Source: an uncultured Bacteroidales bacterium
Lineage (GTDB): Bacteria; Bacteroidota; Bacteroidia; Bacteroidales; Bacteroidaceae
NCBI GenBank assembly: GCA_902763865.1
Contig: CACWTR010000046.1
Coordinates: forward strand, 1-35,961
Direction of reading: 5' to 3'
DNA length: 35,961 nucleotides
A program made the translations under genes and the position numbers. This document shows, in pieces, positions 14,682 to 26,831 of the stretch (within the stretch, counting starts at the first letter, position 1; each line of letters opens with the position of its first letter). The notes beneath the pieces are model-generated. The model had not been told where the DNA came from. It was given only the letters and a program-made list of their open reading frames with translations, and searched no databases.

Positions 14682-14720
14682 CCAGCAAATAAGGGATTCA
14701 ACTCAAAACAAAGAACAACT

Positions 14721-14897
14721 ATGCAACACACCGTTTCCCCTCCCGCACCCACATTGGAAGACTTTTCAGCCCTGCTTGCAAGAGGTCGTGAAATAAAGGA
14801 ACGTCGCATGCGGGAAGCCCGCCAGAAGTGGGAAGCCCGCCAACGGCAAAAAGAAGCTGCCGCAAAATCCGGATACTACGACTTGGAATGGGTTTGA
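14721..14897 (+). CDS. small basic helical protein, function unknown
   Basis: 58 residues from ATG 14721, ~40 nt after a consensus promoter. The open frame reaches back to 14652, but that ATG lies inside the promoter. After a proline-rich start (MQHTVSPPAPTLEDF) the middle is a strongly charged helix (ALLARGREIKERRMREARQK and on), ending SGYYDLEWV. No signal peptide. It stands 66 nt before the first surface-protein gene without an intervening promoter or terminator, so the two are probably one transcript. No family recognised; it may bind nucleic acid or a partner through the basic helix (inference only). Confidence 0.6.
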   Translation: MQHTVSPPAPTLEDFSALLARGREIKERRMREARQKWEARQRQKEAAAKSGYYDLEWV

Positions 14898-14963
14898 GCC
14901 ATGAAGCCGCAAGACTGACACAGAAGCATTAATCACAACCAAACAACTAAATACTTAAACACT

Positions 14964-17900
14964 ATGAAACACAACCTACTAAACAAACTCTTATCCCTCA
15001 CCCTGCTCATAATGGGGGGGCATTTCTTAACCCAACCTGGGCGGATGAAACAATAACCTTTACTTTTACCTCAAAGGAATGGAAATCTGAGGAAGGGAAT
15101 TGGAGCGGTACCAGTGGTAGCGCTTTGGATTCAAAAGGAGTACAATGTCTAAAAGATCAAACATATACAATCACGTCCCCTTCTTCATTCAGCAATATTA
15201 GCTCCATTGTCATTACATATGGAACTGCATCAAAAACAACAACATCAAGTACCATCTCCATCAAAATAGGAGATAATAGCGAGGTAACTAAAAATCTTGA
15301 AGGCGGGGGTAAATCTGGAGCAACATTGGAATGGAACTATTCTCCAGAGCAAACAGGTACAATTGTCATGAAAGTAGCATCATCAGGTGCTTCTTCATAT
15401 GTAAAAAGTATCAAGGTTACCTATTCTACTGCTATAAAGAGCACTGCCCCGACGATTGATGGTGGTGGCGCTGCTTCAGACTTCACGATTTCCAAGGACG
15501 TAACTATTACGGCTACAGGTGGTGCGACGATATACTACACCACAGATGGCTCAGAACCCACCGAGAGCAGCAGTACCTATTCTGAACCCATTCATATTAC
15601 GGGCACAACTACCATCAAGGCAGCTGCTCTGGAGGAAGGGAAGGAATTAAGCTCGGTTTCCAGCAAAACTTTCACGAAAGTACTGGCTGATAACGCCATT
15701 AACGTTGCAGGCGGCACTACACACAATATCGCACTTACCGGAGCTGAGGCCGTTGATGAATATTCCCTCAGCGCAACAGCTACACATGGCACGGTCAACT
15801 ATGCCCTGAAATCTGCCACCAACCTCACAGAAGGTACAGACTTCGACTTTGAGAACGGTGAGTTCGTTTTCTATGAGACTTACAAGGGTATTATTGTCGT
15901 GACTGCATCCGTGGCTGCCGACGATGACTATGCCGCAGCTTCTCAGGACATCACCATCAACGTGGCAGGCAACAAGCGCACTCCCGTCATAGCATACGAT
16001 GGCGATGATGCAGAAATCAGCAACACTGGCACTCTTGTAATTGACCCTGAGTTGATTGAGACAGACGGGACAATAACCGTTACATCCAGCAATATCGATG
16101 TAGCTACCGTGAGCGAATACACCATCTCGGCTGTGGACGATGGCACATCAACCATAACCATTACAACGGCTGAGGGAGAATATTACAATGCAGGAAGTGG
16201 CTCTTTCGAACTTACTGTAGTGACACCTACAGCTTGTGACATCGCCCTGATGGGTGCTCCCGTTGCCAAGACATTCGACGTCTATAACAACGCTACACCG
16301 CAGGTCATCACCTATACCACCAGCAGCACGGGTGAAGTCAGCATCGCCAGCAGCCCATACGCCACCTTCGACATAGACCAGGTGAACAAAAAGATTACCG
16401 TTACCCCGAAGTCAGCTACACCCAGCGAACAAACTATTACCATCAACCAGGCAGCAGAAGGTCGCTACCTGGCAGGAAGCACCACATTCTACCTGACCGT
16501 GACTAACAGCGCCACAAGTGAAACGTATGAGAAGGTAACAAATGCTGCGAATTTGGAAGTTGGTGATGAAATTGCAATAGTAAATGAAGAATATAACAAA
16601 GCTGCTGGAAGTGTAAGTTCCGATCTCCTGACACCTGTCAGCATTAATATTACTAATAATTCATTCAACACAACAAGCGGTGTAGTGACGTACAAACTGG
16701 AAGGCACAACAGGAGAGTGGACTCTTAAAAAGAAAGATGACACGACATATCTTTCCAGTAAAACCGCCAAAAAGATGGCCCTTGTTTCATCAAATCCCAG
16801 CACATGGACTATCTCTATCAGCGATGGAAACGCAACTATGACATCATCCACTGCTTCTGTTGGAGATCTTCAGTATAATCATAATAGCGGTAAAGACCGT
16901 TTTACCACATATACTTCTTCTCAGTCTCCTATCCAGCTCTATAAGCGCAGCAAATACGACAATGTCATCACCGTAGCCAACGGAATAGAGCAGACACTGG
17001 ACTTGGATAGCGAAACAGAGCTGACGCTTTCTGCCACCTCTTACTGCGGCGCTGTGAACTTCGCTATAAAGTCAGCCACAAATCTTACGGAAAACACGGA
17101 TTTCACATTCGACACCGAAACGGGCGAATTGCTGGTTGACGAGGAAGCTGTCAGCGGCACTATCACCATCACGGCAAGCACAACCGAAACAGCTACACAC
17201 AAGGCAGCGAGTGTAGATATCGTTGTATCCGTAGTGGGCAAGCCCGCAGCCCCGGACTTCTCCGGTATCTCCAATCAGGAGAAGCTGGCAGGTTCCACCA
17301 TTACACTCGTGAAAGATGTAGATTTCACGACAGACGGCACTGTCACACTCTCCACTTCCAATGCTGCTGTGGCATCTGTTGACGGACTGACCGTGACAGC
17401 CGAGGCAGTCGGCACAGCCACCATTACAGTGACTGCCGCCGCTGGCAAACTCTATACAGCAGGAAGTACAACATTTGATATCACCGTGACTGCACCAGAA
17501 GGAAAAACTAAAGTAAGCGACAATGTATTGTTCAACGAGACATTTGCAAGTTGTGACGGCACTGGTGGTAATAAGACGGAGGCTTTCGACAATGGTAATC
17601 AAAATGGCAGTGTAGAAGGGAAAACTGATGAAACCTACAGCACTATTACATATGCTTATCCCGCAAATGGATGCGCACGACTTGGCACAGTAAGTGGAAA
17701 TGGCGTTTTGACTACAACTGTTTCTATCACAGGTAATGCAACCCTTACATTCAGTGGAGCAGGATGGAGTGGAAGCGACACCAATACAATCAAAGTGACC
17801 GCGACTGGTGCCACATTGAGCGGAGACACTGATGTAACACTTACAAATGCCGTCTGGAATGACTACATAGTCAACATCTCAGGAGCAACTGGCAGTGTTG

Positions 17901-18529
17901 TAATTACATTTACAGAGAAGCGTGGTTTCTTGGATGACATCAAGATTACACAGACACCCTCTACCACCGTCACACTGAACAAGTACGGCTATGCGACCTT
18001 CTGTTCAGAGAACCCGATGGATTTCTCTTCTACTGAAGGCTACACGGCTTGGCGCGTGAACGACATCGTAGGTAGCACTGTCACCTTTACCAAGATTACC
18101 GAAGCTATCAAGGGCGGACAAGGTGTGCTGCTCTACAACAAGGATGCCGACGGCGAAAGCACCAGCAACGTGACGGTGAACTTTGCCAAAGGAACGCCTG
18201 AGTTCGCCGCTAATGAGAACCTACTCGTTGGCACTCTTGCTCGCACTTATGTTGAAGCGGGCGAATACTATGGGCTGTCTGGACAGAACTTCGTCCGCGT
18301 GGCTGAAAGCACCGTTCCTGCCGGCAAGGCACTGCTGCCCGCAAGTGCTCTGGGCGGCGGCAGCGTCAAGGCCTTCAACTTCGTCTTCGAGGACAATGCT
18401 ACCGGCATCCGCACTGTCGAGACCGTCAGCCCTGAAGAAGCCGCACAAATCTTCGACCTCTCCGGTCGCCGCCTCAACAAGATTCAGAAAGGCATCAACA
18501 TCGTAAACGGCAAAAAGGTTCTTTACTAA
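14964..18529 (+). CDS. large modular secreted surface protein 1, frameshifted at a poly-G tract
   Basis: The start ATG 14964 opens a signal peptide (MKHNLLNKLLSLTLLIMGG) that runs into seven G (15014-15020) and then stops at a TAA 30 codons in. Adding one G gives AFLNPTWADETITFTF and joins the 1134+ codon frame to 18529, a 1188-residue protein; the leader matches that of surface protein 2. Modules (rough): chitobiase/HEX C-terminal-like 159-242 (YYTTDGSEPTESSSTY), Big-like beta repeats 243-515, a module starting YEKVTNAANLEVGDEIAIV 520-663, more Big-like repeats 664-846, a beta-sandwich 850-1000, a module starting VTLNKYGYATFCSENP 1000-1150, and a T9SS-like tail (IFDLSGRRLNKIQKGINIVN). Likely displayed at the surface; ligand unknown. 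The frameshift may be phase variation or a sequencing error. Confidence 0.85.
15014..15020 (+). repeat. poly-G tract (7 G) inside the signal peptide of surface protein 1
   Basis: Seven consecutive G. Frame analysis: upstream frame starts at 14964 (0 mod 3), downstream frame reads at 2 mod 3, so one extra G restores a continuous gene with a normal signal peptide. Confidence 0.9.
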
Positions 18530-18542
18530 CAAACTATTCACT

Positions 18543-18633
18543 ACCACGAATTACACGAATTACACGAATCCCATGTCTCTGAGACATTGCCTGTCACACA
18601 AAGACAATTCGCGAAATTAGTGCAATTCGTGGT
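18543..18633. repeat. inverted-repeat element C between surface gene 1 and peptide gene 1
   Basis: Left arm 18543-18569 (accacgaattacacgaatta...) pairs with the right arm ending 18633 (...gtgcaattcgtggt). The spacer (ccatgtctctgagacattgc...) is nearly the same as in element D, so C and D are copies of one element carried in the duplicated cassette. Confidence 0.9.
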
Positions 18634-18684
18634 AAGAAAGACACATTATTTATATATTAAGAACAAAGTATAAGACTTCAAACT

Positions 18685-18861
18685 ATGAAAAAGACATATA
18701 TAAACCCAAGCACGACGGTTGTCCGTCTCTCCGCGATTAACCCCCTCCTCACTACGTCCGTCCCACAGGTTGGCTTCGACCCCAACACCACCCCCGTCAG
18801 CGGAGATAAGCTGGAAGCCAAGGGCATGAGCGACGTCAACGTATGGGACAACGAGTGGTAA
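18685..18861 (+). CDS. small MKKTYI...WDNEW peptide 1
   Basis: 58 residues. N terminus MKKTYINPSTTVVRLSAINP, C terminus ending SDVNVWDNEW. It is homologous to the 64-residue peptide at 24412 at both ends (MKKTYI-P and VKG/AKG...WDNEW) and variable in between. No signal peptide or membrane segment is evident, though a short hydrophobic stretch with LL follows the basic start. It lies 155 nt after surface gene 1, separated by hairpin element C, with no TAnnTTTG promoter, so it is likely the last gene of that transcript. Function unknown; candidates are a partner, chaperone or secreted peptide for the surface protein (inference). A strong terminator follows at 18938. Confidence 0.7.
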   Translation: MKKTYINPSTTVVRLSAINPLLTTSVPQVGFDPNTTPVSGDKLEAKGMSDVNVWDNEW

Positions 18862-18868
18862 CGACTGC

Positions 18869-18903
18869 GGTTCATGGTTAAAGGTTCATGATTCATGGTT
18901 ATT
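18869..18903. repeat. heptamer repeat (ggttcat), five units
   Basis: Units ggttcat, ggttaaa, ggttcat, gattcat, ggttatt with a strict 7-bp period, starting 8 bp after the stop of peptide gene 1. Confidence 0.75.
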
Positions 18904-18937
18904 CATGGGCCGGGCCGACATGAACATTAACGGATAT

Positions 18938-18976
18938 GGGGGCTGTGTCAGAATGAATGGCACAGCCCCCTTTTTT
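18938..18976 (+). terminator. rho-independent-type terminator after cassette 1
   Basis: Perfect 10-bp stem gggggctgtg (18938-18947) / cacagccccc (18961-18970), 13-nt loop, followed by six T. It closes the transcript containing surface gene 1 and peptide 1. Confidence 0.88.
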
Positions 18977-19102
18977 GCTTTAACCACGAACCAGCACGAA
19001 TTACACGAATTATTCAACTGCTGTTTGTCAGCTAATGGTTTGGAAACTTTTTCATTGTTTTGACACATCCTCTGGTTTTTACTTCATCTTTTTGCAAGAG
19101 TA

Positions 19103-19134
19103 TTTGGAATATAACAATAAAGTATGTACCTCTG
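19103..19134 (+). promoter_or_regulatory. weak promoter before a short remnant ORF
   Basis: TTTG (19103-19106), 20 nt, TACCTCTG (19127-19134), one mismatch to the -7 consensus. It lies 26 nt before ATG 19161. Confidence 0.4.
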
Positions 19135-19160
19135 CAGAGCAAAACAACTCAATCAGAGTC

Positions 19161-19268
19161 ATGTGTACTTATAACCTTACGTTAGACGAGCAACTTGCCC
19201 GTCAACTTGCTCAACTGCAACGATGTTCTGAGCCGACGGAACTGTTTCATGCGCCAACCACACTTTGA
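19161..19268 (+). pseudogene. 35-codon ORF, possible broken antitoxin-like gene
   Basis: Begins MCTYNLTLDEQLARQLAQLQ, which resembles the N-terminal strand and first helix of small Bacteroidetes antitoxins (M-T-Y-x-L-x-L-D-E), then loses the pattern and stops. Another frame continues MRQPHFDNVIDRIIATIVDG to a stop at ~19312, so a frameshift may have split a ~50-codon gene. No toxin partner is next to it unless it is the RelA/SpoT-type gene 190 nt downstream, which has its own promoter. Weak call. Confidence 0.25.
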
Positions 19269-19396
19269 CAATGTCATAGACCGCATTATTGCCACAATAG
19301 TCGATGGAGATTGGTGATGCAAGTGAAGTGGCATTCCATTGGGAGGTTGTTTTTGTGCGATTTTATTGTAACAAGGAATTAAATATGGCTTTCTGC

Positions 19397-19427
19397 TTTG
19401 CAGTGTGGGAAGAAAAGTGTAACTTTG
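19397..19427 (+). promoter_or_regulatory. promoter of the RelA/SpoT-type synthetase gene
   Basis: TTTG (19397-19400), 19 nt, TAACTTTG (19420-19427): full consensus, 31 nt before ATG 19459. Confidence 0.78.
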
Positions 19428-19458
19428 TAGCAATTCCGGAAAAGAACCATAGAGAACC

Positions 19459-20496
19459 ATGCTGTACGCACGTCATAAGCTGGACAAGGCGGGACAGGCC
19501 CTGATAGGCACTGACCCTTTCCTTCGCAACGCAGCCCTGCCTGTCATTCAGGCCTGGCGCGAGACGCACTTCTTTGTCCTGCAAGAGCTCGGCAGGCAGC
19601 TACTGGCGCTGTTCCGCGAAAAGGGCCTGGCATACGACTTCTTCTCTATGCGCATCAAGCGCATGACGTCCATCGAGGCCAAGCTGCGCAACAACAAGGA
19701 GAAAGGCACCAAGCTTGGCGGCATGCAGGACATAGGCGGCATCCGCTTCGTCTTCGAGACGATAGATAGTCTGGACAGCGCCGTCAGCGTCCTCGACGGG
19801 TTCGTGCCGGATGGCTTCTCCGTCGTAAGGAGCTACAACTATGTCGCCGAACCGAAGGAGAGCGGGTACCGCAGCGTACACTATGTGTATAAGTTCAACA
19901 GCGAGGATGAGAGGTACGACGGCAATTCCATCGAGCTTCAGGTCAGGACAAAGATGCAGCATGCCTGGGCAATGGCCGTAGAGACGGCAAGCCTCATCTC
20001 ACAGACCACGCTGAAAGCCGACATCAAGGACAACAGCGAGTGGCGCGGCTTCTTCAAACTCGTCAGCGCACTCTTCGCAAGAGACGAGGGCAAGCCTGTC
20101 TATAAGACGTTTGCCCACTACACGCAAAAGATGTTCTGCACGGAATACTTCGACTATGAGAGACACAACCTTGTAGATCAGTTGAAGGCCTTGCGCGTGA
20201 CGGTCAACTCCGACTTCGACAAAGCAGACAGGGGGTATTGCGTACTGACCATAGACTTCAACAGCAAAATCGTCCACACCCAGACCTTCGGCGAGAATCA
20301 GGAAAAGGAGGCGGCCAGCCTCTTCAGCCAGATAGAGCAGGCCATCAACCGCGACGAGGCGGCCCTGATGGTCGCCATCGAAAACATGTTGGAGATAAAG
20401 GAGGCATACCCCAGCTACTTCCTCAACACGCAGCGGTTCCTGGCATTCCTCTCCGACTTCGAGCAGCAATGCAAGGTGCTCCTGAACTCCGAATGA
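19459..20496 (+). CDS. RelA/SpoT-domain nucleotide pyrophosphokinase-like protein
   Basis: 345 residues. The RelA/SpoT synthetase core is at about 60-180: RIKRMTSIEAKL (65-76, ATP-binding basic patch and Ser), DIGGIRF (91-97, catalytic Asp), EPKESGYRSVHYV (131-143, substrate loop with Tyr/His) and ELQVRTKMQHAWA (159-171, catalytic Glu and RT). All key residues look intact, so it should be active, making (p)ppGpp or a related product; some stand-alone members instead modify tRNA as toxins. There is no HD hydrolase, TGS or ACT domain. A ~160-residue helical C-terminal part of unknown role follows. Own promoter; only 43 nt separate it from surface gene 2 with no promoter between, so both are probably co-transcribed. 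Which nucleotide it makes is open. Confidence 0.9.
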   Translation: MLYARHKLDKAGQALIGTDPFLRNAALPVIQAWRETHFFVLQELGRQLLALFREKGLAYDFFSMRIKRMTSIEAKLRNNKEKGTKLGGMQDIGGIRFVFETIDSLDSAVSVLDGFVPDGFSVVRSYNYVAEPKESGYRSVHYVYKFNSEDERYDGNSIELQVRTKMQHAWAMAVETASLISQTTLKADIKDNSEWRGFFKLVSALFARDEGKPVYKTFAHYTQKMFCTEYFDYERHNLVDQLKALRVTVNSDFDKADRGYCVLTIDFNSKIVHTQTFGENQEKEAASLFSQIEQAINRDEAALMVAIENMLEIKEAYPSYFLNTQRFLAFLSDFEQQCKVLLNSE

Positions 20497-20539
20497 ACCC
20501 CATCGACAACAACACAAACCAACTAAATACTTAAACACA

Positions 20540-23500
20540 ATGAAACAAAAACTACTAAAATTAACGCTCCTGCTATGTGCCCTCATAGTGGGAGGAAATG
20601 TCTGGGCGGACACGAGCACAAGCACTCTTATGTTCGAAGGCAAATGCAATGGCAGTGGGACAGCCGATGATGGTGTCGTGGCTTGGACCGTGACCTCCGA
20701 CGGATCAGAATCAAACTTCGACAACTCAAAAGGCATCCACTATGGAACAAGTAGTGGGAAGGTGCAGTACATAAAACTGTCCACTTCCGACATTCAGGGA
20801 ACAATTACCCAGGTGATTGTGAATGCCTCCACTGCTTCTGGTGTGACTGCCACTGTCGGTGTCACTGTTGGTGGTGAAACATTCGGCGAAGAAGCAAAAA
20901 CGCTTTCTACAACTGCAACAAACTATGGATTCAACGGTTCTGCAGAAGGTGAAATAGTCGTTACTGTCACTAAGCCTGAGAGTGCAGCCAAAGCTCTTTA
21001 TGTGAAGAGCGTGGCCGTTACCTATACCACTGGCGGTGGTGACACGCCTACTCTTGAAGACAACGACCTTGCGCTTGTTGATGCACCCATTGCACTCAGC
21101 TTTGACCTCTACAACAACCACAAAGCACAAGTCATCCATTACACTACATCCAGTACGGGTGAAGTATCGGTGGTAGCTGGTGCTAATGATGTCAGCTGCT
21201 CTGTTGATGGGACTAACAAGACGATTACTGTCACTCCGATAGCCGTGACTAACGGCAAACAGACCGTTACCGTCAATCAGGCTGCCGACGGAACCTACAA
21301 GGCTGGCTCAGTGACGTTCACCGTGACCGTCACCGACAGCACTCCTATCGTTACCCACACCGCCACATTCTCCGTGAATGGTGCAACGACTGCAAAGGAA
21401 TATCCAGTAGGCGCAGACATTGAGTTCCCTGCCGCTCCTCAGGATGTCAGCGGCAAGACCTTCGTGGGTTGGGCAGCAGCAGCCATCGACGGCACGACCG
21501 ACGAGGCTCCCGAATTCGTAACGAGCGCCACGATGGGCGACAGCGACGTGACCTTCTATGCCGTGTTTGCATACGCTGATAGCGGGGGGTCGTCGGAGGT
21601 TATAGACGTATTGGACCGTGAACTGACAGGTGTAACAGGCACCTCTTACACCGACTGGTCAGGGAAGACGTCCATCTCCGATGCCGTCTATGCCGGTCAG
21701 AGTGCAGGCGGCAACTCTTCAATCCAATTACGTTCCCAAAGTCCGGCAGGTATAATTACAACCACCTCCGGCGGCAAGGCCAAAAAGGTTGTCGTTGCTT
21801 GGAATTCAAACACAGCTGATGGTCGCACGATTAATGTTTATGGAAAGAACCAAGCTTACAGTTCCGCATTAGAGTTGTACAATGATGATACAGCTGGTGA
21901 CCTGCTTGCAGAAGTCGCTAAAGGTACATCAGAGGTGACAATTAGCAAAGATTACGAGTACATCGGCATCCGTTCTAAGAACGGTGCACTTTATCTGGAC
22001 GAGGTTCAGATTACCTGGCAGACAGGTGGCGACGTGACCTACAGCGAATACTGCACGACGGTTGTTGCAGCAGCCGTGGAGCGTCCTGTCATTACGGTTG
22101 CAGAGAATCCTTTCCTGTTCTCCACAACGGCCACCATCACCTGCGCCACGGAAGGTGCTGCCATCCAGTACAGCTTCGACGGCGAGAACTGGAGCAACTA
22201 TACAGATGCACTGACCATTGCGGAGACAACTACCATCTATGCCAAGGCCACAAAGGGCAACGACGAGAGTGCAGTTGTACAAGTCACCGCTACGAAGAAC
22301 CTGGCAGAACCCACTGTTACAATCGTTGCAACAGGCATCACGAACACCAATGTCCATGAAGGCACTGCTGCCGGCAGCCTCTCTGCCACCGTCGCCTACA
22401 ACGACAATGCTGTCGAGGGTGCTACCGTGACGTGGAGCAGCGATGACGAAGATGTTGCCACAATTGCCGAGAATGGTGCTGTCACCCTCGTTGGCGCAGG
22501 CACCGTCACCTTCACCGCTACCTTCGCAGGAAATGACGACTACAGCGAAGCGTCTGCCACATACGAGATGACAGTGACAAACTTTGACCCCAATGCCCCC
22601 GGTTCGGTGAACAATCCCTACAGCGTGGCTGAGGCTATTGAGGCAACGCCTGCCAGCGGAACATCAAGCGAAGTTTACATCCAGGGTATCGTCTCTGCAT
22701 TCTATGCTACAGACATCATGAGCGATGGCAGCAGCTATCGTTACTACATCAGCGACAACGGTAAGACCGAGAATCAGTTGCTTGTCTATAAGGGCAAGGG
22801 CTTGAACAATGTGGCATTCTCCAGTGCAGACGACCTGAAGATTGGCGACGAGGTTGTCATCTATGGTGGCTTGACTACCTACAAAAATGCTGCAGAGGTT
22901 GCTTCCGGCAACTACATCGTCAGTCTCAACCGTCCTGTTGACACCACTCCTTCCATTGCTGTCAGCACAACATCTGTTGAGGCTCCTGCCGCTGGCGCTG
23001 ACGGCACTATTGAAGTCACCTACAATAACATTAAGGACGTTGCGGCAGAAGTGTTCTTCTGTGATGCGGAAGGTAAAGATGCCACCTACGACTGGATTGT
23101 TGCAGAAATCAATGAAGACAATAATATCGAATATGTGATTGATGCCAACACTGGTGTAGCCCGTACAGCTTACCTGAAGGTCTATGCCCTCGACGACGAA
23201 ACCAACGCTGTCTATTCCGAACTCATTACCATCTCTCAGGCTGCTTACGTTGAACCTGCAACTGTTAGCCAATATGCTCTCTTCACTGGTGACCTTGTAG
23301 AAGGCGATTACATCATTTGCTACGAGCGAAAGGCCATGAATACCACTGTTACAAATGACCGCTTACAGTATAATGCAATCACACCCCAGAATAACATCAT
23401 TACTACCAGCAATGCCTCTATTGTTTGGCACATTGCCAAGAGCGGCGACTACTGGACCATCTACAATGCAGAGGCGGATGCCTACGCTGCCAGCACAGGT

Positions 23501-24259
23501 GCAAAGAATAAAGCACAAATGCTGGAAGACGGAACAGATGACATGGCTCTATGGACAGTTACCGGCACAGAAACCTATGATTTTGTAAACAAGCATAACG
23601 AAGCTAACAAGGTCAATGCCAATCTGAGAAACAATGGAACCTATGGTTTCGCATGCTACGCTACAGGTACTGGCGGGACCCTGTCACTCTACAAGAAAGT
23701 ATCACCCGTCACTCCCACGACCCTCACGCTGAATGCTTCTGGCTTTGCTACGTTTGCCAGCACGGAGGCTCTGGACTTCTCGGACTTCGAGACGGCGGGC
23801 TACACTGCTTGGCAGGCTACGAGCACGGACGGAGAGACCATCCACTTCGAGCAGATCAAGACTGCTGTTGCTGCCGGCACGGGCATCCTGCTGAGCGGTG
23901 AGGCCGGTGCTGCCATCGAGCTCAACGCCGCCAGCGAAGGCGAGGACCTGACAGGGACGAACCTCCTGGTGGGCATCACGAAAGCCACAGAGGTTGCCGA
24001 CGACGAGTACTTCGGCCTGTCCGGTGACGAGTTTGTGAAGGTTAAGGCCGGCACCATTCCCGCTGGCAAGGCCCTGCTGCCCGCAAGCGGCACGTCCGTC
24101 AAGTCCTTCAGCTTCGCCTTCGAGGGCAACGCCACCGGCATTAAGAGCCTCTCTGACTCTCCCTTACAGGGCGAGACGATAGTCAACCTTGCCGGCCAGC
24201 GCCTGCAGAAGATGCAGAAGGGCATCAACATCGTAAACGGCAAAAAGGTTCTTTACTAA
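20540..24259 (+). CDS. large modular secreted surface protein 2
   Basis: 1239 residues, signal peptide MKQKLLKLTLLLCALIVGGNVWA. Rough modules: beta-rich N domain to 165; Big-like 175-265; InlB-type B repeat ~272-345 (KTFVGWAAAAIDG...TFYAVFA); beta-sandwich 355-495; HEX C-terminal-like 510-585 (IQYSFDGENWSNYTDALTI); Big-like 590-680; an OB-fold-like domain 680-800 (YIQGIVSAFYATD... GDEVVIYGG); BACON-like 802-905; a module starting YALFTGDLVEGDYIICYER 910-1055, paralogous to that in protein 1; a GFATFAS module 1060-1200; T9SS-like tail (IVNLAGQRLQKMQKGINIVN). It shares with protein 1 the leader before the ATG (aactaaatacttaaacac), the last ~180 residues and the downstream hairpin, so the two genes arose by duplication. 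Probably surface-exposed and binding polymer; ligand unknown. Confidence 0.88.
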   Translation: MKQKLLKLTLLLCALIVGGNVWADTSTSTLMFEGKCNGSGTADDGVVAWTVTSDGSESNFDNSKGIHYGTSSGKVQYIKLSTSDIQGTITQVIVNASTASGVTATVGVTVGGETFGEEAKTLSTTATNYGFNGSAEGEIVVTVTKPESAAKALYVKSVAVTYTTGGGDTPTLEDNDLALVDAPIALSFDLYNNHKAQVIHYTTSSTGEVSVVAGANDVSCSVDGTNKTITVTPIAVTNGKQTVTVNQAADGTYKAGSVTFTVTVTDSTPIVTHTATFSVNGATTAKEYPVGADIEFPAAPQDVSGKTFVGWAAAAIDGTTDEAPEFVTSATMGDSDVTFYAVFAYADSGGSSEVIDVLDRELTGVTGTSYTDWSGKTSISDAVYAGQSAGGNSSIQLRSQSPAGIITTTSGGKAKKVVVAWNSNTADGRTINVYGKNQAYSSALELYNDDTAGDLLAEVAKGTSEVTISKDYEYIGIRSKNGALYLDEVQITWQTGGDVTYSEYCTTVVAAAVERPVITVAENPFLFSTTATITCATEGAAIQYSFDGENWSNYTDALTIAETTTIYAKATKGNDESAVVQVTATKNLAEPTVTIVATGITNTNVHEGTAAGSLSATVAYNDNAVEGATVTWSSDDEDVATIAENGAVTLVGAGTVTFTATFAGNDDYSEASATYEMTVTNFDPNAPGSVNNPYSVAEAIEATPASGTSSEVYIQGIVSAFYATDIMSDGSSYRYYISDNGKTENQLLVYKGKGLNNVAFSSADDLKIGDEVVIYGGLTTYKNAAEVASGNYIVSLNRPVDTTPSIAVSTTSVEAPAAGADGTIEVTYNNIKDVAAEVFFCDAEGKDATYDWIVAEINEDNNIEYVIDANTGVARTAYLKVYALDDETNAVYSELITISQAAYVEPATVSQYALFTGDLVEGDYIICYERKAMNTTVTNDRLQYNAITPQNNIITTSNASIVWHIAKSGDYWTIYNAEADAYAASTGAKNKAQMLEDGTDDMALWTVTGTETYDFVNKHNEANKVNANLRNNGTYGFACYATGTGGTLSLYKKVSPVTPTTLTLNASGFATFASTEALDFSDFETAGYTAWQATSTDGETIHFEQIKTAVAAGTGILLSGEAGAAIELNAASEGEDLTGTNLLVGITKATEVADDEYFGLSGDEFVKVKAGTIPAGKALLPASGTSVKSFSFAFEGNATGIKSLSDSPLQGETIVNLAGQRLQKMQKGINIVNGKKVLY

Positions 24260-24272
24260 CAAACTATTCACT

Positions 24273-24363
24273 ACCACGAATTACACAAATTACACGAATT
24301 CCATGTCTCTAAGACTTTGCGTGTCACACAGGGATTATTCGTGAAATTAGTGCAATTCGTGGT
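24273..24363. repeat. inverted-repeat element D between surface gene 2 and peptide gene 2
   Basis: Left arm 24273-24300, right arm ~24335-24363. Arms and spacer match element C closely (ccatgtctctaagac...gtgtcacaca), and the flanks match too, from the last codons of the surface gene to the peptide start codon. Confidence 0.9.
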
Positions 24364-24411
24364 AAGAAAGACACATTAATATATTAAGAATACAGTATAA
24401 GACTTCAAATT

Positions 24412-24606
24412 ATGAAAAAGACATATATTTCTCCGGAGTTAGTAACCGTTGAGCTGGCAACACGTACAGCAATTCTTCAGGCTGGAAGTCTGTGGACCAC
24501 CGAGGACAGGCTGAAGCTCGACGAGGGCAAGGAAATCGGCGCAGCCAACGTGGACGTGAAGGGATTCGAGAACCAGCTCTCGAACATCTGGGACAACGAA
24601 TGGTAA
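24412..24606 (+). CDS. small MKKTYI...WDNEW peptide 2
   Basis: 64 residues, starting MKKTYISPELVTVELATRTA and ending NQLSNIWDNEW. Paralogue of the 58-residue peptide at 18685; both ends are conserved and the middle differs. The ~50 nt before the ATG are also conserved (agaaagacacatta... agtataagacttcaaa). It follows surface gene 2 by 152 nt across hairpin element D with no promoter. No signal peptide. Two surviving copies with conserved ends suggest selection. Function unknown. Confidence 0.75.
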   Translation: MKKTYISPELVTVELATRTAILQAGSLWTTEDRLKLDEGKEIGAANVDVKGFENQLSNIWDNEW

Positions 24607-25136
24607 ACCACGAATTGGGATAAATTAAAATACCATATTATATATAACAACGGATTAAACGGATTAAACGGATTATTCTACTGGTGAGTTTTCCTAACCA
24701 CGAATTACACGAATTGCACGAATTAATAGACTCGGTTGATTCATGTAATTCGTGGTCAAAGAGAATCAAAGCGGAAAAGCAAATCCGTTTAATCCGTTTA
24801 ATCCGTTGTTCTTTTAACTCCCACTAATTCGTGTAATTCGTGCAATTCGTGGTCAAAGAGAATCAAAGTGAAAAGGCAAATCCGTTTAATCCGTTCAATC
24901 CGTTGTTCTTTTAACTCCCACTAATTCGTGTAATTCGTGCAATTCGTGGTTAAAGAGAATCAAAGCGGAAAGGCAAATCCGTTTAATCCGTTGTTCTTTT
25001 AACTCCCACTAATTCGCGTAATTCGTGCAATTCGTGGTCAAAGAGAATCAAAGCGGAAAAGCAAATCCGTTTAATCCGTTCAATCCATTGTTTTTATTCT
25101 TCGCCTAACCCGTTATATTGTTTTTATGGTCGGGCT
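24607..25136. other. 530-bp gene-free repeat region
   Basis: Composed almost wholly of 9-bp words. It holds acggattaa x3 (24650-24676), a left accacgaatt arm (24699-24725) and a ~97-bp tandem array (24742-25100) whose words are the reverse complements of those. No credible gene; open frames here are repeat artefacts. Confidence 0.85.
24742..25100. repeat. 97-bp tandem array, four units, itself built of 9-bp words
   Basis: The anchor cgtggtcaaagagaatcaaa occurs at 24751, 24848, 24945 (one mismatch) and 25033, that is spacings of 97, 97 and 88 bp. Each unit has aattcgtgn words followed by aatccgttn words. The 88-bp unit has two aatccgttn words where the others have three, so the length difference is exactly one 9-bp word. 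Confidence 0.92.
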
Positions 25137-26774
25137 TCAGAAGATGACGACCTTGCCGCCTACGATGTAGGGGCCTTTGTTTGATTTGCCGTTTACTTTT
25201 TGTCCGGCGAGGTTGTAAATCGTCTGGCGCTGTCCGGTGAGGTCGTCGTCCTCTTCCTGCGGCACCTGCTTCAGCGCATCGGGATTGGTGGGCTCGGTCA
25301 GGAGCATTCCGCAGTCGAAGTATGCGCCGCCCGACTTCTGCTGCACCTGTACTGCCAGCACGTTGCGCCCGTAGCGCAGTCTGGAGGAACTGACGTTGAC
25401 GACGCGGTAGTCGCTGCGGTAGCCGGTGCCGGTGGCGATGGGCGAGCCGTTGAGGTAGGCTTTGAAGTCGTCGTCGTGGCAGATGTAGAACTTGAAGGTG
25501 TCGGTCTCGGGGTCATGGTCGATGTAGAACTCTCGGCGGACGAAGATGAAGTTGTTCGTTCCGTTCCAGAGGGAGTAGTAGGGTGCGGCGTTTCCCTCGG
25601 AGGCGGTGGGGAAGTGGCGCGTCTGCCATGCAGAGTCGTCGAAGTCGGCCTGGAACCATCGCGAGGGTCCTACGACGCTGGTGCCTTCCTTGCGGAGGAA
25701 CTTGCCTTCCCACATCATGTCGCTGCCTTTCGGGGCCACGAAGAGGCTGCTGCCCTGGACGATGGGGTCGCCCTGTCGCGACATGACGTAGCGGAAGTTG
25801 TGGTCGATGAGCTGGTGCGTGAGGCTCAGTCCGTAGTAGCCTGTTCCGTCGCCGTCGGCAGCATAGTCCATGAGTACGATTCCGGCGGGTCCGTCGTACT
25901 GTCCCGAGGCGAGGAGCTGCTGCATGTGCTGGTTGCAGGCCCTGGCATTGTCCTGGTAGGCAGCGGCGGAGCTGGTGGAGCCGCTGTAGCCGGAGGTCTG
26001 GTTGACCACCCACGTGTAGGAGTAGCCTCCGGCGAGTGCCGCGCTGCGCGAGAGCATGTCGCGGATAGCCTTTTTCTTGACGTTGGTGTCGCTGATTTCG
26101 TAGTGGTCCTGTAGCCACCAGGGGCATCGGTGCGATTCGGGACCGTAGCAGTGTCCGCCCAGCATCTCGCTGATGTCGGAACGGTTGTCGCGCAGATCGA
26201 CGATGCGTCCGCCGCGGATGGGCGGCGTATAGTCGTTGCGGCTGAGGAAGAGTATCTTGCCTCGTGCCTCGCCGACGGTCAGGTTGGGACGGAAATCTAC
26301 CAGGTGGTCCGCGATGGCCGTCAGGCTCTTTTGCAGCATGTCGGCAAAGGCTGTGCTGCCGTTGTCGCCCTCCGTCTCGTGGCGTATGATGACGATGCAG
26401 AACTCCGAGGGATTGGCATCGACGAAGTTGCAGAGCTGCTGCATGACGGGGTCGAAGTCGAAGCTGGTGGTGGCTATGCCGTGATTGATGTGCAGCTTGT
26501 CAGCGCTGACGCAGGGCCGCAGGTCGAAGGCACGCACGCCGAGGGGCAGCATCTCCTCCACGCTCTTGCTCTGCGTCTGGGCAAAGCTCTTGTAGATGGA
26601 GCCCAGGACTCCCGAAAAGGAGCTGGCGCAGGCGTCGTGGGCACCGGGCACGGAGAGCTGGCAGACGAAGGCCTCGTCCTCGAGGAAGGCCATCCAGCGG
26701 CTGTAGTTCGTCACCTGAGCCTGCACGCAGAGGGACGCGGCGGCAAGAAGGAGAAGGGAAAAAAGCTTTTTCAT
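25137..26774 (-). CDS. secreted PI-PLC X-domain phosphodiesterase with T9SS-like tail
   Basis: 545 residues from ATG 26774 (signal peptide MKKLFSLLLLAAASLCVQA); the longer frame to 26831 crosses the promoter. The PI-PLC X domain covers ~25-350: LSVPGAHDACAS with His46, GVRAFDLRPC, and LHINHGI with His98, the two catalytic histidines of bacterial PI-PLC. Such enzymes cleave phosphatidylinositol or related lipids to a cyclic phosphate. Residues ~370-500 are a galactose-binding-like beta-sandwich (FVRREFYIDHD, then FYICHDDDFKAYLNG, RYGRNVLAVQV). The end (IYNLAGQKVNGKSNKGPYIV) resembles a T9SS sorting signal. Monocistronic. Possible targets are host or bacterial inositol lipids (inference). Confidence 0.88.
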   Translation of the reverse strand: MKKLFSLLLLAAASLCVQAQVTNYSRWMAFLEDEAFVCQLSVPGAHDACASSFSGVLGSIYKSFAQTQSKSVEEMLPLGVRAFDLRPCVSADKLHINHGIATTSFDFDPVMQQLCNFVDANPSEFCIVIIRHETEGDNGSTAFADMLQKSLTAIADHLVDFRPNLTVGEARGKILFLSRNDYTPPIRGGRIVDLRDNRSDISEMLGGHCYGPESHRCPWWLQDHYEISDTNVKKKAIRDMLSRSAALAGGYSYTWVVNQTSGYSGSTSSAAAYQDNARACNQHMQQLLASGQYDGPAGIVLMDYAADGDGTGYYGLSLTHQLIDHNFRYVMSRQGDPIVQGSSLFVAPKGSDMMWEGKFLRKEGTSVVGPSRWFQADFDDSAWQTRHFPTASEGNAAPYYSLWNGTNNFIFVRREFYIDHDPETDTFKFYICHDDDFKAYLNGSPIATGTGYRSDYRVVNVSSSRLRYGRNVLAVQVQQKSGGAYFDCGMLLTEPTNPDALKQVPQEEDDDLTGQRQTIYNLAGQKVNGKSNKGPYIVGGKVVIF

Positions 26775-26800
26775 AGTACCTAAGCAATGTTTTTCTGCTG

Positions 26801-26831
26801 CAAAAGTAACGACTTTCTTCCGTATATGCAA
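26801..26831 (-). promoter_or_regulatory. promoter of the PI-PLC gene
   Basis: Minus strand: CTTG/TTG near 26829-26831, 20 nt, TACTTTTG (26801-26808). It lies 27 nt before ATG 26774 and excludes the upstream ATG at 26831. Confidence 0.6.

Follow-up and report, generated by a model that had tools for sequence, protein, structure and literature searches.

Cargo proteins of the type IX secretion system (T9SS) perform much of the fiber-degrading, adhesive, and proteolytic work of Bacteroidota. In the type III and type VI secretion systems (T3SS and T6SS), secretion chaperones and adaptors are small proteins encoded beside the secreted substrate. For the T9SS, the accessible part of a review (PMC10202324) describes type B cargo genes that are clustered with a cognate PorP/SprF gene and mentions no peptide partner for type A cargo (PF18962/TIGR04183). 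Here we analyzed a 35,961-nucleotide stretch of DNA from an uncultured Bacteroidales bacterium (contig C46 of a draft genome of 2.9 Mb with 84% completeness; hereafter, the window), which carries two cassettes composed of a gene for a large surface protein followed by a gene for a short peptide. To judge from sequence comparison, this peptide gene of 50–65 codons is conserved and, as a rule, comes last in T9SS-type cargo units, the first gene of which encodes a large protein that bears an apparent Sec signal as well as a short tail of the T9SS type. Genomes across the T9SS-bearing Bacteroidaceae, among them members from the rumen, carry many paralogs of such units, which are also present in at least one genus outside the family but within the order.

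These units differ from type B cargo in the nature of the partner: PorP/SprF is an outer-membrane protein, whereas the candidate partner here is a peptide of 50–65 amino acids without a recognizable signal sequence. What the two arrangements share, as far as the accessible part of the review describes type B cargo, is a dedicated partner gene clustered with the cargo gene. Profile and database searches revealed no sequence relation between the peptide and T3SS or T6SS chaperones; moreover, any cytosolic chaperone would act at an earlier step, before Sec moves the cargo considered here across the inner membrane. Type A cargo resembles the upstream proteins in its apparent Sec signal, in being a large surface protein, in a short C-terminal signal whose core, G-[IV]-[YN]-I, lies close to the end, and in the co-occurrence with SprA and PorV, but differs in that the curated models do not match the tail domains described below.

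Results

Peptide genes lie directly behind cargo genes that end in a conserved tail

The tail of the upstream cargo genes was recognized by the motif G-I-N/Y-I-V-N-G-K-K at their C-terminal end. Within the genome that contains the window, 16 of the 18 peptides lie directly behind a gene with this tail (13 read as sequence and three by coordinates). As for the remaining two, one peptide gene (L005, G000:C8:63037-63222) is located behind the T9SS translocon gene sprA, with a tail remnant between them, and the other (L011) follows a gene ending in repeats that we take to be dockerin-like. A further set of 80 loci came from named genomes, which are assemblies of Bacteroidaceae, Prevotellaceae, and Bacteroidales and in many cases originate from ruminants. 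The tail was present upstream of the peptide in 77 of the 77 loci with upstream sequence, the other three being at contig ends; 76 of these tails were called by regular expression and one (L122) by eye. By comparison, the tail ends only 3 of the 148 other non-overlapping genes of at least 150 codons in the same loci and, against a broader background, 5/471 of all six-frame open reading frames (ORFs) of 150 codons.

A similar picture emerged at the levels of genus and family. Peptide loci are behind a tail gene in 27/29 cases in the genus (the exceptions being L024, at a contig end, and the tail-less L044) and in 24/28 best-match loci in the family (the exceptions being L064, at a contig end, and the tail-less L052, L061, and L066); a few of these 28 loci belong to the genus, and the locus sets overlap in a few loci. 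Three of the genes counted here (at L033, L035, and L050) have a different end (IVIVKNG...), taken as a variant tail, without which the counts become 25/29 and 23/28. Among 40 further family loci, which were our own choice among the peptide matches listed, include one duplicate of L070, and were scored with a looser tail expression than the 80 named-genome loci, 38 have the peptide behind a tail, in some cases as an interrupted gene or a remnant (as at L240, L253, and L270). The contig end is too near to judge the tail at L024, L064, L234, L148, L167, and L168, of which L024 and L064 were scored as misses in the genus and family counts and L234 in the count of 40. Tails missed by the regular expression or script were recognized by eye at L023, L027, L030, L033, L035, L042, L043, L046, L048, L050, L053, L074, L077, L078, L086, L122, L240, L250, L253, L254, L257, L260, and L270.

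Outside the family, a peptide match was found in 3 of the 247 genomes of an order-level search (G288, G387, and G421); the list from this search also includes the genome of the window and no fewer than two further members of its family. In G288, which belongs to another family, 11 of 13 peptide loci are tail-adjacent; the corresponding counts are 1/2 in G387 and 0/1 in G421. A sequence-only reading of the window had proposed that a surface protein and a small peptide gene form a conserved unit, to be abandoned if the peptides proved to lie mostly away from surface genes. They do not, and the proposal is strongly supported, in a far more general form, by the loci of the window's genome, the named genomes, the genus, the family, and G288.

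Two further observations concern individual loci. The peptides at L061 and L273 are short and lie behind genes with ends that are presumably FISUMP-like, and they may have a second kind of partner. At L024, a tandem pair of peptide genes is located at the contig end.

The peptide gene closes the unit

Putative terminators, predicted as a hairpin followed by a T-run within 220 nucleotides (nt) 3′ of the peptide gene, were found in 55/76 loci compared with 3.2 in shuffled sequences, a count that rests on windows of unequal length and skips gaps of zero or less. With windows of equal length, in the 48 loci with gaps of at least 60 nt, a terminator-like hairpin follows the peptide in 37/48 and the cargo stop codon in 0/48. 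The gap between cargo and peptide genes has a median of 77 nt, and in six loci the peptide start overlaps the cargo stop. From these sequence features, the peptide gene is predicted to stand at the end of its transcript. The next large ORF 3′ of the peptide is on the opposite strand in 42 cases and on the same strand in 29.

The peptides form a family under purifying selection

A search of the window's genome with one peptide gave eight full-length matches, and profile searches gave 15 matches at E ≤ 10 and 17 at E ≤ 1e-3; these last 17, together with L013, make up the 18 peptides of this genome. The L013 peptide has the usual C-terminal motif in another frame and is possibly a decayed copy. 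Family members are 50–65 residues long, with a conserved start (M-K-K-x-Y-x-x-P...S), an acidic remainder, and a W-x-x-W end; the first ~25 residues are conserved and the middle varies between subfamilies. The ratio of nonsynonymous to synonymous substitution (dN/dS), pooled over 178 close, non-independent pairs, was 0.17 in the N-terminal part, 0.18 in the middle, and 0.10 in the C-terminal part, and changes at codon positions 1, 2, and 3 of these pairs numbered 1109, 820, and 2774. The set represents one subfamily and was fetched by conserved patterns, which favors conserved members. Together, dN/dS and the codon-position counts rule out that the peptide is a chance ORF.

Database searches gave no convincing peptide match in Pfam, NCBIfam, or PHROGs, with one weak match each among 30 members (E = 0.062, 0.096, and 0.0056, respectively). 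Four peptides had no NCBIfam match at E ≤ 1, and the best NCBIfam match among the 30 members was lasso_cyano (E = 0.096). PDB sequences gave no peptide match at E ≤ 10. As scored by hydropathy, no hydrophobic N-terminal signal sequence of the kind that would indicate Sec export or a lipoprotein was seen in 30 peptides, the maximum 12-residue hydropathy of which averages 1.18 (0.61–2.02), compared with 2.2–3.1 in 11 cargo signal peptides.

The tail and the peptide co-occur with the T9SS

The cargo N-termini are hydrophobic, as expected of a Sec signal, in all 11 proteins that gave the hydropathy range above; copy 1 of the window was left unscored because its frame is interrupted. The window's genome encodes both SprA and PorV. 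Among 151 family genomes, 102 have both the tail and SprA, 3 the tail only, 9 SprA only, and 37 neither (p = 3e-23); the corresponding counts are 72/3/33/43 for peptide and tail (p = 3e-13) and 71/4/40/36 for peptide and SprA (p = 2e-9), all three tests ignoring ancestry. SprA or PorV is present in 73 of the 75 peptide-positive family genomes. Of the four such genomes without SprA, G040 and G159 have PorV; the PorV search covered eight genomes.

The curated T9SS sorting-domain models TIGR04183 and PF18962 match 0/35 tail domains at E ≤ 1. Across the window's genome, TIGR04183 gave 10 matches at E ≤ 10, five of them over the cut-off, and two matches below the cut-off coincide with tail matches (C27:13573 and C16:30264); at E ≤ 10, 13 of 14 control genomes have a match as well. 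Because the curated models leave the tail unmatched, T9SS export of these proteins is a supported inference rather than a family match. The T9SS export proposed from the window alone thus gains from the co-occurrence of tail and SprA and from the presence of SprA and PorV in the genome, and lacks the support of the sorting-domain models. The tail profile itself matches two solved chains, an arabinanase (4kca, E = 7e-8) and a beta-helix protein (7jvi, E = 3e-6).

Cargos are varied, and peptide and tail distances correlate

The proteins encoded upstream of the peptides are diverse. Their domains include a C10 peptidase together with an I69 inhibitor domain (L224), an S41 peptidase (L227), Cleaved_Adhesin, Big_2, SusF_SusE-like, and CHB_HEX_C_1, and Pfam scans of 16 cargo proteins left 8 without a match at E ≤ 0.001. 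This variety suggests a peptide function common to many cargos. In addition, peptide and tail distances correlate within the window's genome (13 pairs, r = 0.39, p = 0.002), also after removal of three near-duplicates (r = 0.40, p = 0.009).

The window carries a local duplication of one unit

The features of the two cassettes, all on the plus strand, are as follows.

14964..18529, +, copy 1 surface-protein gene: start and signal-peptide region from 14964, main open frame 15125-18529 (1134 amino acids), tail GINIVNGKKVLY
18542..18634, +, palindromic dispersed repeat, first copy: arms 28 nt, 37 nt between
18685..18861, +, peptide gene 1: 58 amino acids, MKKTYINP...VWDNEW
18938..18970, +, strong terminator-like hairpin followed by TTTTTT, 3′ of peptide 1
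20540..24259, +, copy 2 surface-protein gene: 1239 amino acids, apparent signal peptide, CHB_HEX_C_1 domain, tail GINIVNGKKVLY
24272..24364, +, palindromic dispersed repeat, second copy: arms 28 nt, 37 nt between
24412..24606, +, peptide gene 2: 64 amino acids, MKKTYISP...IWDNEW

Three pairs of blocks are alike between the cassettes: 5′ blocks at 14938-14983 and 20514-20559 (46 nt, 89%), 3′ blocks at 18453-18648 and 24183-24378 (196 nt, 89%), and a second pair of 3′ blocks at 18648-18701 and 24375-24428 (54 nt, 93%). These blocks, 89–93% identical, cover the leader, the last ~25 codons of the surface-protein gene, the hairpin, and the peptide start, and the middles differ. Such identity of ends and flanks is expected of a local duplication, and we read the two cassettes as copies of one cargo-peptide unit that probably arose in this way. 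Both the duplicated cassette and the diverged middles between shared ends that had been noted in the initial reading are therefore confirmed.

The shared untranslated leader fared differently. It is present in both copies, within the 46-nt block; however, an 18-nt leader sequence (≤3 mismatches) matches only twice in the window and the collected peptide loci, both times in the window, and the leaders of ten other cargo genes differ and are A/T-rich. Being confined to the two window copies, the leader is a mark of local duplication and not of the family, and we rejected it as a family mark.

In copy 1, the frame from the ATG at 14964 ends after 30 codons and does not join the main frame, which has CHB_HEX_C_1/Fn3_assoc matches and a Big_2 match below the cut-off. 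A run of seven G at 15014-15020 lies between the signal-peptide start and the main frame, and the break at this run may reflect a sequencing slip, an on/off switch, or a dead gene. The frame of copy 2 is open throughout, with Big_2 and List_Bact_rpt matches below the cut-off. The site at 18938-18970 is the strongest terminator-like site of the window, with the longest stem of 11 candidates, a total no higher than in shuffled sequences; the window scan listed no terminator-like site directly behind peptide 2.

An ORF with a RelA_SpoT domain (19459-20496) sits between the two cassettes. The gene at 25137-26831, on the minus strand and convergent with cassette 2, encodes a 564-amino acid protein without a Pfam match and has a weak tail match (C46:25143-25238).

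The palindrome is a dispersed repeat and not part of the unit

The arms of the hairpin element are complementary at 86% in the first copy and 89% in the second, and RNA folding of the two copies gave z = -7.1 and -6.4. Within the window's genome, the palindrome arm has 81 matches, compared with 0 for a reversed control pattern, and these include 27 plus/minus arm pairs 53–64 nt apart. The element resembles repetitive extragenic palindromic (REP) or miniature inverted-repeat transposable element (MITE)-like repeats in being a short imperfect palindrome dispersed in the genome. It is located between gene and peptide in 2 of the 15 loci of this genome that were read, both in the window; its absence from the other 13 indicates that the unit does not need it. 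Contrary to the sequence-only reading, which had included the inverted repeat in the conserved unit, we therefore regard it as a dispersed palindrome that is incidental to the unit. No Rfam family reached the gathering score in 14700-25200. Two side observations concern the same repeat: the arm pairs have a preferred spacing of 58 nt, and the segment 24694-25095 contains four tandem copies (88–97 nt spacing) of a 120-nt unit that consists of palindrome arms and a AATCCGTTTAATCCGTT repeat.

Discussion

A function apparently shared by many cargos, presumed co-expression in one unit, and pairing by tail type together lead us to favor, tentatively, a role of the peptide as a small intracellular partner that escorts or controls its cargo. 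According to this model, cargo and peptide genes would be on one transcript, and the peptide, in which we saw no hydrophobic signal sequence, would stay inside the cell. Made beside the cargo, it could escort it, hold it in an export-competent state, or adjust its amount or targeting. The conserved peptide ends would bind a shared partner, for instance a general factor or the region of the cargo tail; pairing with a cargo class would fall to the variable middle. The peptide may physically partner with the surface protein.

Several results weigh against this model. The upstream gene is tail-less at L044, L052, L061, L066, L075 (G387), L076 (G421), L088 and L090 (both G288), and L273. Two peptide-positive genomes, G036 (best peptide E = 2.3e-7) and G064 (5.9e-5), have neither SprA nor PorV, and 40 of the 111 SprA-positive family genomes have no peptide at the cut-off used. 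Comparison of the peptide profile with the tail-domain profile gave no similarity, and derivation of the peptide from the tail domain was rejected on this ground. Finally, the window's genome has 102 tail matches (E ≤ 0.1) for its 18 peptides, and none of 40 further tail genes inspected by eye has a peptide behind it. We therefore rejected the idea that all tail genes carry a peptide; the peptide is no general requirement of the T9SS and marks a subset of cargos.

The main rival to an intracellular partner is a processed and exported peptide, that is, a precursor resembling those of ribosomally synthesized and post-translationally modified peptides (RiPPs) or of signaling peptides, from which a conserved N-terminal leader ending near a conserved L-A-x-S would be removed and whose variable, acidic, Trp-bearing remainder would be modified and exported, perhaps displayed on or handled by the cargo. 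RiPP precursors, too, are short, combine a conserved N-terminal part with a middle that varies, and come as many paralogs, here scattered over the genome; precursor families with scattered paralogs can be served in trans. We nevertheless hold this explanation to be doubtful. The C-terminal W-x-x-W is also conserved, and in the single subfamily for which dN/dS was computed the middle is under the same constraint as the N-terminus. On this ground we rejected core hypervariability as an indication of a natural-product precursor, in a set that favors conserved members. Beyond the one lasso_cyano match among 30 members, no RiPP family was matched. A fixed enzyme nearby is not suggested by a next ORF that may be on either strand, although no search covered enzymes in the rest of the genome. 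Next comes the possibility that the peptide controls the cargo operon in cis or post-transcriptionally: its translation or its product would tune the cargo mRNA or cargo synthesis, and its amino acids would act by binding a regulator. Such a role agrees with a peptide gene that follows the cargo gene on the same strand, precedes a terminator-like site, and in some cases has a start that overlaps the cargo stop, but a 3′ position is unusual for an attenuator and the dN/dS values of 0.10–0.18 point to a selected product and not to a mere translated stretch, which makes this explanation unlikely.

The shared 3′ ends and flanks of the window copies, with their different middles, a pattern that local duplication or conversion would leave, and the open peptide frames that persist beside interrupted or remnant tail genes (L005, L240, L253, and L270) could also be read as signs of a peptide with no function tied to the cargo, carried along as the units multiply through duplication and through recombination within the conserved 3′ part of the cargo genes. 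An association that spans genera and a second family, and purifying selection along the whole peptide, render this quite improbable. A role in self-protection, in which the peptide, as an inhibitor or immunity factor, would prevent the cargo from acting inside the producer, is suggested by the C10 and S41 proteases among the cargos, and small co-encoded inhibitors of C10 proteases exist. Inhibitors should track the catalytic domain, however, and one peptide family also serves Ig-like and adhesin-type cargos; we accordingly give this explanation very little credence.

A literature search returned nothing that we recognized as such a peptide, which is weak evidence of absence given its thin coverage of subscription journals. 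The peptide and its pairing with a cargo gene both fall outside any described kind that we found. We put at about an even chance the broader proposal that T9SS-bearing Bacteroidaceae possess an undescribed class of small peptides, with between one and about two dozen members in a genome, in which every peptide is paired with a surface protein of its own on the same mRNA and acts as a cargo-specific export or targeting factor or as a co-delivered peptide product. If true, this peptide class would be a new layer of T9SS biology. A peptide gene tied to a subset of cargos would offer a concrete handle on T9SS cargo sorting, and its association with them may provide a route to short-tailed T9SS-type cargos that the curated sorting-domain models miss.

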